From Spirochaetia bacterium (GTDB lineage: Bacteria > Spirochaetota > UBA4802 > UBA5550): a DNA stretch of 64,000 nucleotides. The notes under the pieces were generated by a model, which worked only from the letters and a program-made list of their open reading frames with translations, ran no database searches and had not been told where the DNA came from. The position numbers were made by a program, and so were the translations under genes. The first letter of the stretch is position 1. Every line of letters begins with the position of its first letter. The stretch covers positions 124,001 through 188,000 of the forward strand of contig VFJS01000002.1 in the NCBI GenBank assembly GCA_009885955.1, written 5' to 3'. Positions 37,819 to 41,971 of the stretch are shown in pieces.

Positions 37819-40329
37819 ATGAGAAAAAAAATCATTATACTGCTATCAGCAATTTTCATCCTTCTCACTGCAGGCATTGCATTTTCATTCTGGTATATAT
37901 CAGACTCAACTAACAAGTTGAATTATATAATTAAGCTTCATCAGGTAGAACAGCTCAGGCGCTCTCTACTCATTGATCTTCAATCTGTACAGTCAAGCTT
38001 TTATGACAGTAACTCCGTTTTAAATCAAAGATATGGCCAACTTTCAGGTAATATTGAAAATCTTGATAACAAAAGTCAGATGTGCAGTTCCTGCCATCAT
38101 CAGCCGCATATTGGAAGCAGAATTTCCAGGATACAGACCATGATCAGGGAATATGAAAAACTGGTAACCAATTATATAAAAGTAAATTCAAATGGAAAAT
38201 TAAAGCATCAGCAGAAAATGGAGATAGAAGACATTTTCGGGACTATAATCCGGGAACTCCAGGATATGTCTCATATTGCAACAAACAGTCTGGAAAATTT
38301 AACATTAAAGACTACTGAAAACATAAGTTATATTATTAAAATACTGGCATTAACCTTTGCAACTACACTGGCATTTTCAATTTTCTTTGCCGTAAGGCTC
38401 CTTACGTCAATGACCGGGCCCATAAATATTCTCTTACATGCAACCAGAATGATTTCATCAGGCAGGCTGGGTTATGCAATAGATCAGAAATTTGCCACTG
38501 AATTCGGGGAACTTGCTGATAATTTTAACAGTATGAGCATTGAACTGAAAAGAAATCATGACAGGATTAATCAGGACATTGCAGATTTCAGGGAGGCTGA
38601 AGAGAGGCTTAAGATCAGCGAGGAGAGGTATGCCCTGGCAGTTCAGTGCACCGACAGCGGGTTATGGGACTGGGACCTGAAAACCGATAAAATTTATTTT
38701 TCCACACGATGGAAGTCGATGCTTGGCTACGGTGACGAAGATATCGGAAATTTACCAGAAGAATGGCTAAAGAGGATTCATCCCGATGATAGCATCGGCG
38801 TGGAGAAAACTGTCATTGAATGCCGGGAGGGATTCTTCAATCAATTCCAGAAGGATTACAGGATTCTTCATGAAAATGGTTCCTATATATGGGTAAACTG
38901 CAGGGGAATTATTGTAAAGAATAATTCCATGGAGCCGGTCCGGATCATCGGGTCGCAGTCGGATATTACTGATAGAAAGAGTGTTGAAGATGAATTGCTC
39001 TATGACGCCTTTCATGACCCGTTGACCAACCTCCCTAACAGGATGATATTTTTTGATCATCTACAGCTCGCAATCAACCGCGTGAAGAGGAGTGGGGACA
39101 AAAGAATGTATGTTGTGTTTTATATTGATATAGACAGCTTCAGGGATATAAATATGACATATGGAGAAGGGATGGGCAATAACCTGCTTGTTGATTTCGG
39201 GAAAAGGATAAAGAGTATTCTCCGCTCCTGTGACACGTTTGCCCGTTTTGAGGAAGATGAATTTGTTATTCTTATTGAGGATATAGAAAACAGGGCCGAA
39301 GGTATTAATTTAATAGCACGTGTAAATGAAGCAATAAAACCGGAATTCATTTTATTAAACGAGCAGGATAAGGAAAAAAAGTTAAACATAACAATAAGTC
39401 TGGGCGTGGCTTTCAGCAGTAATGAAATTCAGGTTCCTGAAGAATTAATATGGAATGCAAATACCGCCATGCGCCATGCAAAGGGAGCCGGAAAAAACTG
39501 TCATAAAATATACGCCAGCGATATGAATGATAAGCTGATTCAGTTCAGCCAGTTAAAAGAGGAACTTAAAAAAGCTATATATGATGATGAGATTGATCTT
39601 GACTATCAGCCGATTTTTTCCGTAAAAACAGGGAGAATATGCGGATTTGAAGCACTGGCAAGATGGAATCATCCGGTAATGGGAATTATAGATCCTGATA
39701 CATTCATCCCCATTGCAGAGGAGTCTGGGATGATGAATGATTTTGGGAGTCTGGTGCTTGAAAAGGCATGCAGGCAGATAAGAGCATGGCAGAATGAATT
39801 TTCCGGAGTTGAACCACTGACTGTCAGTATCAATATATCAAAAAAACAGTGTACCAGGGAGCTTGTTGAAAACATTGAGAAAAAAATAAAGGATACCGGG
39901 ATCGACCCAAGCACCCTGATTCTGGAATTCCCGGAATCATTATTGTCCGATAACTCTGAAATACTTGCTCCGTTGATGAGAAAGTTAAAAAAAATGAATG
40001 TTTCGCTTCAGATCGATAACTTCGGAACAGGAGGCTCCTCTCTTAAGTACCTGAACAACTATCCGATTGACGCATTGAAGATAGACAGGAAATTTATCAG
40101 CAATATTCATCACAACAAAAATGAAAAATCAGAGATAATTAATGCAATAGCGCTGCTGGCTAAAAATCTTAATATGCAGGTTATCGCAGACGGAGTTGAA
40201 ACCGAGGAGCAGATGGATATTGTTAAAATGTTTGGTTTCAGCTATATTCAGGGGAATTATATATCCAGGCCCTTGAAACTTAATGAGGTCAGTAATTATC
40301 TCCATGAAAATGTGAAGATTGAAATTTAA
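37819..40329 (+). CDS. Membrane c-di-GMP signalling protein: CXXCH sensor-HAMP-PAS-GGDEF-EAL
   Basis: An 836-residue two-helix membrane sensor. TM1 (about 3-25) and TM2 (about 172-195) enclose a helical periplasmic domain with CSSCH at 89-93, the covalent haem-c motif. HAMP (about 195-247), PAS/PAC (about 262-385), GGDEF (about 392-557) and EAL (about 575-827) follow. The GGDEF motif reads EEDEF (478-482), which suggests loss of cyclase activity. EAL is intact at E611 (GFEALARW), but the DDFGTG motif reads DNFGTG (D733, N734) and AEGVET reads ADGVET, so phosphodiesterase activity is uncertain. I start at the ATG at 37819: a TTG 54 bp upstream is in frame, but neither has an SD, and a possible promoter (TTGACA at 37735) would start too close to it. 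An ankyrin gene follows 7 bp on. Confidence 0.85.
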   Translation: MRKKIIILLSAIFILLTAGIAFSFWYISDSTNKLNYIIKLHQVEQLRRSLLIDLQSVQSSFYDSNSVLNQRYGQLSGNIENLDNKSQMCSSCHHQPHIGSRISRIQTMIREYEKLVTNYIKVNSNGKLKHQQKMEIEDIFGTIIRELQDMSHIATNSLENLTLKTTENISYIIKILALTFATTLAFSIFFAVRLLTSMTGPINILLHATRMISSGRLGYAIDQKFATEFGELADNFNSMSIELKRNHDRINQDIADFREAEERLKISEERYALAVQCTDSGLWDWDLKTDKIYFSTRWKSMLGYGDEDIGNLPEEWLKRIHPDDSIGVEKTVIECREGFFNQFQKDYRILHENGSYIWVNCRGIIVKNNSMEPVRIIGSQSDITDRKSVEDELLYDAFHDPLTNLPNRMIFFDHLQLAINRVKRSGDKRMYVVFYIDIDSFRDINMTYGEGMGNNLLVDFGKRIKSILRSCDTFARFEEDEFVILIEDIENRAEGINLIARVNEAIKPEFILLNEQDKEKKLNITISLGVAFSSNEIQVPEELIWNANTAMRHAKGAGKNCHKIYASDMNDKLIQFSQLKEELKKAIYDDEIDLDYQPIFSVKTGRICGFEALARWNHPVMGIIDPDTFIPIAEESGMMNDFGSLVLEKACRQIRAWQNEFSGVEPLTVSINISKKQCTRELVENIEKKIKDTGIDPSTLILEFPESLLSDNSEILAPLMRKLKKMNVSLQIDNFGTGGSSLKYLNNYPIDALKIDRKFISNIHHNKNEKSEIINAIALLAKNLNMQVIADGVETEEQMDIVKMFGFSYIQGNYISRPLKLNEVSNYLHENVKIEI

Positions 40330-40336
40330 GGGAACA

Positions 40337-41971
40337 ATGAAATTGAATCATATAGTAACAATCTTATATATGATTGTTTTTTTTGTAAATTTTAAAACTG
40401 CTTCAGGTAATAATATTAATTCAGCTGATTACGGGATAAAAAATGCTGATATGTTTTTTTACCTCGATGTAAAATCACTGGTTGCCTTCGTAAATAAAAA
40501 TGGGATTAAAACAGAAGACCTTGTGTATCTTTTGGATACACAAACTGATGACAGGAAGAGGGCTTTATTATCGAACCTTCTGCCTGAGATAATTTCAATA
40601 AGTGTATCAGGTAATTTTCAGAATGTTGAAAAGGGTGAAGGCGCCCTGGTTTTTATCAGCGGGTCCAGAAAATTCATCACTTTTCTTAATTCAACCGGAA
40701 GGCCTGTAAAAAGCAGTATTACTGGCGCAGTGATTTATCAAAATCCCGATGATGCGTTTATGTATACATTAAGTGGTGATATAGCGGTTTTTGGTCAAAA
40801 AAAGGAGATTGAAAATTATTTAAAATTAAAGAATGATACAAAACCATTCAGCCCCGCCTTCCATAAAATTATAACCGAAAGTAAAAAGAATAAGGACTTA
40901 TATGTATATTTACCCTTCTCGAATTCCATTAGGCTAAAGTTTGAAAGCGCCGTAAAAAAAGGGAGAAATTTTGGAAGAAGTGTTGACCATAATGTTTTTT
41001 TAAGAGCAATCATGGATATGAATTCAATGGAGGCATATACTCTGTTTCAGGATAGGCCTGTCATCAATGTGGCATTAAATGGGAAAAACAGTGTTGACGG
41101 CCATCGATTGATAATGTTCAGCCATTTCCTCATCGTGGGAAGCAGTCTGGCGCTTCCTTTTCTTGATTATCTAAGCAGTTCATTTGGTGAAAAACCTATT
41201 AAAGCTGAAGATGAATCCCTGGTAAGAGCGCAGGAGATATTCGGCCGTATTGCTTCAACAATTAATAAAAACAGTATTGTCATATCATTTCAAATGACAG
41301 ATTTAGAAAAAGGCCTCCTGGCAGAAAACATTAGAGGAAGGATCAGGTCAGTCATGGGGAATGTTCTTGCTGAGAAAAAAAAAGAGAAGGCCCTGAAAAT
41401 GTTTGATGCAATAAAAAATAATGATCTAGAAACCATAAAAAACATCATTAATGACATCAGGGATGTTAATGTTACGAACAGAGAAAAGGATACTCTTCTC
41501 TGTTATGCTGCAAGAATCGGCCATTCTCATATTATATCATACCTGATCAGTAATGGAGCTGATATCAATTCCCGTTCAGGGTACGATACATTAACGCCAC
41601 TGTTAATAGCAGTGAAACAGGATAAGCGGACGATTACACGGATGCTGCTCCAGAGCGGAGCCAATAAAAACATGGCCGACGATGAAGGAAAGACGGCGTT
41701 GCATTACGGGGTTGAGTTGAAGAATGCCGATATTGTTAACATACTCCTGGATTTCAGGGTGGATATTAATGCCGTATCAAAAAAAAGGGTAACGCCGCTG
41801 CATATCGCGGCTGATAAAGGGTACATGCCTATTGTTAAAGCGCTTGTAGATGCAGGGGCAAAAATTAATGCTGTTGATGATAATGGACATTCACCCCTTG
41901 ACAGGGCCCGTATGGGCAATCACAAAGACGTACTTGATTTCCTTGAATCCCGGATAAATAAAAAAAAGTAA
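40337..41971 (+). CDS. Exported protein: unknown domain plus ankyrin repeats
   Basis: A 544-residue protein with a signal peptide (hydrophobic about 5-17, ending at TASGNN). Residues about 25-350 form a domain I do not recognise; it starts with YGIKNADMFFYLDVKSLVAFV, a pattern of exported proteins that present beta strands and Asp/Asn turns. The last 170 residues hold four to five ankyrin repeats (LLCYAARIGHSHIISYLISNGADIN, TPLLIAVKQDKRTITRMLLQSGAN, TALHYGVELKN, TPLHIAADKGYMPIVKALVDAGA), used for protein binding. GGGAA precedes the ATG by 4 nt. It begins 7 bp after the c-di-GMP sensor gene, so both are co-translated. Periplasmic or surface location inferred. Confidence 0.78.
   Translation: MKLNHIVTILYMIVFFVNFKTASGNNINSADYGIKNADMFFYLDVKSLVAFVNKNGIKTEDLVYLLDTQTDDRKRALLSNLLPEIISISVSGNFQNVEKGEGALVFISGSRKFITFLNSTGRPVKSSITGAVIYQNPDDAFMYTLSGDIAVFGQKKEIENYLKLKNDTKPFSPAFHKIITESKKNKDLYVYLPFSNSIRLKFESAVKKGRNFGRSVDHNVFLRAIMDMNSMEAYTLFQDRPVINVALNGKNSVDGHRLIMFSHFLIVGSSLALPFLDYLSSSFGEKPIKAEDESLVRAQEIFGRIASTINKNSIVISFQMTDLEKGLLAENIRGRIRSVMGNVLAEKKKEKALKMFDAIKNNDLETIKNIINDIRDVNVTNREKDTLLCYAARIGHSHIISYLISNGADINSRSGYDTLTPLLIAVKQDKRTITRMLLQSGANKNMADDEGKTALHYGVELKNADIVNILLDFRVDINAVSKKRVTPLHIAADKGYMPIVKALVDAGAKINAVDDNGHSPLDRARMGNHKDVLDFLESRINKKK

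Follow-up and report, generated by a model that had tools for sequence, protein, structure and literature searches.

The sensor protein described here is encoded in a 64-kb stretch of DNA from a member of the Spirochaetota (the whole analysed stretch, called the window throughout), and it probably carries haem c on a Tar/NarQ-type four-helix periplasmic domain coupled to a PAS-GGDEF-EAL output. The genome comprises 4.77 Mb in 117 contigs, and the window is part of contig C26. The frame is open across all 836 codons with no stop, and the start codon at 37819 is consistent with both homologues found, a paralogue on contig C69 of the same genome and a relative in a single further genome from that family (G006). 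The first-pass annotation had reported an exported CXXCH between two membrane helices at 38070-38120, within a helical domain showing no other recognised sensor and attached to HAMP, PAS, GGDEF and EAL domains. These points hold: the motif is CSSCH, all four domains are confirmed by Pfam, and the periplasmic segment, composed of helices only in two predicted models, is covered by no Pfam or NCBIfam family and has no PDB family match (Table 1).

Table 1. Features of the sensor gene and its product, in window coordinates
Feature	Residues	Position	Strand	Description
Sensor protein, 836 aa		37819..40329	+	TM1 - predicted periplasmic four-helix CXXCH domain - TM2 - HAMP - PAS - GGDEF - EAL
Periplasmic segment	28-170	37900..38328	+	Four-helix bundle in AlphaFold models
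CSSCH	89-93	38083..38097	+	Candidate covalent haem-c site, helix 2-3 turn, followed by invariant His94
His41	41	37939..37941	+	Invariant residue on helix 1; candidate distal ligand of the haem
Met150	150	38266..38268	+	Helix 4, invariant; possible alternative distal ligand
HAMP	196-244	38404..38550	+	PF00672, 1.4e-7
Cytoplasmic PAS	291-378	38689..38952	+	PF08447, 7.9e-19
GGDEF	397-560	39007..39498	+	PF00990, 1.2e-34
EEDEF	478-482	39250-39264	+	Degenerate GGDEF signature
EAL	581-818	39559..40272	+	PF00563, 9.3e-70
DNFGTG	D733, N734	40015-40020	+	In place of DDFGTG
ADGVE	D791	40189-40191	+	In place of AEGVE

The CSSCH motif is the sole CXXCH among the listed open reading frames of the window, with a chance expectation, calculated from window Cys and His frequencies, of 2.2e-4 per 145-aa periplasmic segment and 0.03 over all window reading frames of at least 150 aa. 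Across the three proteins, C89, S91, C92, H93 and H94 (CxSCHH) are invariant, as are Met150 and His41, the latter lying within the conserved stretch K39-L40-H41-Q42-x-E44-Q45-x-R47. Loss of the Cys or His in homologues, raised in the first-pass annotation as evidence against haem attachment, is not seen in the only homologues found, since Cys89, Cys92 and His93 are invariant despite 39-48% identity among the periplasmic segments, in a small sample of three members.

The same annotation had proposed a search for this domain in other signalling proteins, which yielded the C69 paralogue and the G006 relative; beyond these, a profile built from the three domain sequences found no further relative among 393 genomes of the phylum and 20 of the family. 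Scanning genome contigs with the domain returned one locus (L038), which has the contig coordinates of the G006 relative (Spirochaetes bacterium isolate Dive96_bin3.202). Three other genomes of the phylum gave weak profile matches (L035-L037) to chemoreceptors, which were taken as coil matches because their N-terminal parts, as far as shown, carry no CXXCH. A search of plasmids did not turn up the sensor domain, and phage records and viral contigs gave only HAMP-region matches, with no relative of the sensor domain. The full 836-aa query matched plasmids mainly through its PAS-GGDEF-EAL part, which is uninformative on the sensor, and the sensor-domain profile gave weak matches only against PDB sequences.

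Covalent attachment of haem c to the CSSCH of the window protein is a well supported but unproven candidate assignment. Contig C10 carries a cluster encoding CcmF, CcmC, CcmB and a CcmA-like ATPase, and contig C41 encodes a CcsA-like protein. Four PF11845 sCache_heme proteins are also encoded in the genome, elsewhere than the sensor locus, one of them joined to GGDEF and another to a histidine kinase, along with two further HAMP proteins bearing CXXCH upstream of HAMP among the 30 HAMP loci examined. Given these cytochrome c maturation genes and other CXXCH or PF11845 sensors, the haem-c assignment is a natural one for the window protein.

The two AlphaFold models, for which two sequences were used, contain helices only and no strands, at moderate confidence (mean pLDDT 72 and 74). 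The domain-only model predicts helices at residues 29-62, 65-89, 97-121 and 126-169, with the CXXCH in the turn between helices 2 and 3. The closest folds of the modelled bundle are LytS (in the XylFII-LytS complex), PcaY_PP, KinB, Adeh_2942, NarQ, Tar and Tsr, and the bundle also resembles TorS (in complex with TorT). These matches, at Z 13-16, are near background for helical bundles and generic for that class, so a Tar/NarQ-type four-helix bundle is likely and no closer kinship is claimed. Judged by helix lengths, Cys89, His41 and Met150 would share a layer some 20-24 residues away from the membrane-distal turn, with the CXXCH at 24. The predicted fold and the TM1-bundle-TM2-HAMP layout would be shared with Tar, Tsr, NarQ, PcaY_PP and KinB, but there is no sequence family match to them, and no Pfam family of the 4HB_MCP-type clan matches the periplasmic segment. 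To our knowledge, no haem has been recorded for the sensors of these five proteins.

In both the C69 and the G006 loci, the gene directly upstream of the sensor encodes a PhnD-type binding protein (PF12974). The two binding proteins are 68% identical, compared with 29% for the next best match among 393 genomes of the phylum. As the remaining neighbourhood genes differ between the loci, binding protein and sensor seem to move together as a pair. Elsewhere in the phylum, PhnD-type genes stand beside transporter genes or sensor-like genes without CXXCH. The partner shows sequence similarity to PtxB, PhnD, AioX and ArrX, of which AioX and ArrX signal through sensor histidine kinases (PMC5908839). 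The pairing of a membrane sensor with a binding protein recalls AioX-AioS, ArrX-ArrS, TorT-TorS and XylFII-LytS, differing from them in the GGDEF-EAL output, the CXXCH on the sensor and the partner-less state of the window copy, which has no adjacent PhnD-type gene and no remnant of one detected in the window. The C69 gene is the sole match to the PhnD-type protein in the genome, and its product could in principle serve both sensor copies.

This association offers a different account of the input, in which the main signal is the compound bound by the PhnD-type protein (an oxyanion or something similar) and the haem is structural or a secondary redox element, the whole being a system of the AioX-AioS type that gained haem. 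The recurrence of the pair in two of the three members amid differing neighbourhoods, its sequence conservation, the signalling role of the related AioX and ArrX, and the resemblance of the modelled bundle to the partner-binding LytS and TorS, among others, are consistent with it. The window copy nevertheless stands without such a partner, and the CXXCH is kept in all three proteins, the partner-less one included; we consider this account unlikely. A more tentative reading is that haem c was grafted, independently of sCache_heme, onto the helix 2-3 turn of a four-helix bundle that also takes a PhnD-type protein, giving a two-input c-di-GMP receptor for haem redox state or gas and for a solute. 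We regard this as possible.

The output domains of the window protein depart from those of its relatives. Its GGDEF signature reads EEDEF, while the C69 paralogue and the G006 relative keep GGDEF. Its EAL domain retains EAL but carries a D-to-N change in DNFGTG and an E-to-D change in ADGVE, both at conserved acidic positions, where the two relatives keep DDFGTG and AEGVE; the aligned solved EAL enzymes also keep DD and AEGVE, except one MorA entry with NN. These three altered motifs make it unlikely that the window protein synthesizes c-di-GMP, and suggest that it may hydrolyse it poorly. The statement in the first-pass annotation that the sensor feeds c-di-GMP is therefore doubtful for the window copy, whereas the corresponding motifs are intact in the C69 and G006 proteins. 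Judging from its motifs, the window protein is probably a weak phosphodiesterase or a c-di-GMP receptor, and a role in complex with the C69 paralogue is plausible.

The same changes raise the question of whether the window gene is a decaying version of the C69 paralogue with no present signalling role. Its GGDEF domain is 46-47% identical to those of the other two proteins, compared with 70% between those two, and the degenerate GGDEF, the altered EAL positions and the missing phnD-like neighbour point the same way. Against decay, the 836-codon frame is intact, the sensor motif is still present together with HAMP and PAS, and the invariant periplasmic positions are kept; we consider this reading improbable. 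LapD is an example of a degenerate GGDEF-EAL protein that is functional. Still less probable is that CXXCHH and His41 bind zinc or another metal, or that the cysteines form a redox disulfide, with no haem attached: two Cys and three invariant His could build a metal site and the domain matches no cytochrome family, but an exported CXXCH is the usual substrate of haem attachment where maturation genes and other haem-c type sensors occur.

In the proposed haem-based mechanism, the cytochrome c maturation system would attach haem to Cys89 and Cys92, with His93 as the proximal ligand and the invariant His41 (or Met150) as the likely distal ligand. A redox change of the haem, or NO displacing the distal ligand, would shift helix 1 against helix 4, and TM2 and HAMP would relay this movement to PAS-GGDEF-EAL. 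For the C69 and G006 proteins, the neighbouring PhnD-type protein probably docks on the bundle, comparable to AioX on AioS, and would supply a second input. The window copy itself would probably work as a phosphodiesterase of weak activity, as a regulator that binds c-di-GMP or as a partner of the C69 paralogue.

On thin evidence, NO or the redox state would be the likeliest signal, by analogy with sCache_heme, for which NO binding has been measured in one example (PMC12889525); NO would be the likeliest gas in view of the norCB genes near one relative. Downstream of the G006 sensor, on the same strand (L056:12398-16991, contig C16 of that genome), lie a nitrilase-family gene, norC, norB and a gene for a 4Fe-4S protein, with norC carrying a second cytochrome c motif. 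The encoded NorB and NorC match solved NO reductases at 7.6e-114 and 5.7e-19, respectively, and norCB accompanies one of the three members. NorB was not seen in the genome of the window, where an aa3-type oxidase subunit was the sole PF00115 (COX1-family) protein found. The same genome has an NrfA-family match (PF02335; L123, C99:75940-77145) whose aligned region includes one TGA and one TAA.

The first-pass annotation called a combination of exported c-type haem with HAMP-PAS-GGDEF-EAL much less usual. Coupling of periplasmic haem c to c-di-GMP enzymes has already been described for sCache_heme (PMC12889525) and is listed for the Geobacter protein GSU2622 (PMC8396549), and this very genome encodes an sCache_heme-GGDEF protein. 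Members of sCache_heme (DUF3365/Tll0287, PF11845) couple periplasmic haem c to c-di-GMP enzymes, GGDEF/EAL fusions included, and have a Cache alpha/beta fold in which an insertion between strands 3 and 4 carries the CXXCH (PMC12889525). The window protein resembles them in placing a periplasmic CXXCH between two membrane helices, with HAMP or output domains after them, and differs in that its domain is modelled, at moderate confidence, as all-helical and without the Cache strands. Membership in this family was rejected: PF11845 gave no match to the protein at E up to 1 or to the three sensor regions at E up to 10, and direct comparison with a PF11845 protein of the same genome detected no similarity. 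Other known signal transducers with c-type haem are DcrA and the Geobacter proteins GSU0582, GSU0935 and GSU2622, the last given in a listing as HAMP-GAF-HD-GYP and bearing a c-type haem motif (PMC8396549). They would share exported c-type haem sensing, there in chemoreceptors, but GSU0582 and GSU0935 have PAS-like/Cache domains and that of DcrA has been described as PAS, unlike the modelled window domain.

What is unusual in the present protein is the four-helix scaffold, the absence of a family model and the PhnD-type partner of its relatives, and a literature search returned no paper describing a c-type haem four-helix sensor. A 2026 preprint presents sCache_heme as a case of a short haem-c peptide inserted into a sensor domain (PMC12889525). 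If our reading is correct, a second, unrelated sensor fold bears CXXCH, implying that the haem-peptide route was taken more than once and adding a type of haem-c sensor that goes unrecognised in current domain libraries. With its PhnD-type partner, if confirmed, the system would be a test case for how one receptor can combine a haem signal with a soluble ligand.

Several further observations concern the surroundings of the sensor gene and the other candidate haem sensors of the genome. Eight bases past the stop of the sensor gene begins a gene (40337-41971) for a 544-aa protein whose N-terminus looks exported and which ends in ankyrin repeats; the two genes may be co-transcribed. The two further HAMP proteins with CXXCH upstream of HAMP, L100 (C7:61087-61242) and L115 (C26:94085-94183), have no PF11845 match above the cut-off and show weak similarity to PF21563 (Mcp40H-20_sensor), with L100 also containing a C-x4-CH motif (CSISSCH). 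An sCache_heme histidine kinase (CLRCH, PF11845 and HisKA_2) adjoins an aa3-type cytochrome oxidase cluster (L088:3536-10950, C70:373.5-381 kb). The sCache_heme-GGDEF protein on contig C4 (L089:4554-5804) carries CLKCH, and a Vibrio vulnificus plasmid stretch annotated as a diguanylate cyclase shares 46% identity with its sensor part.
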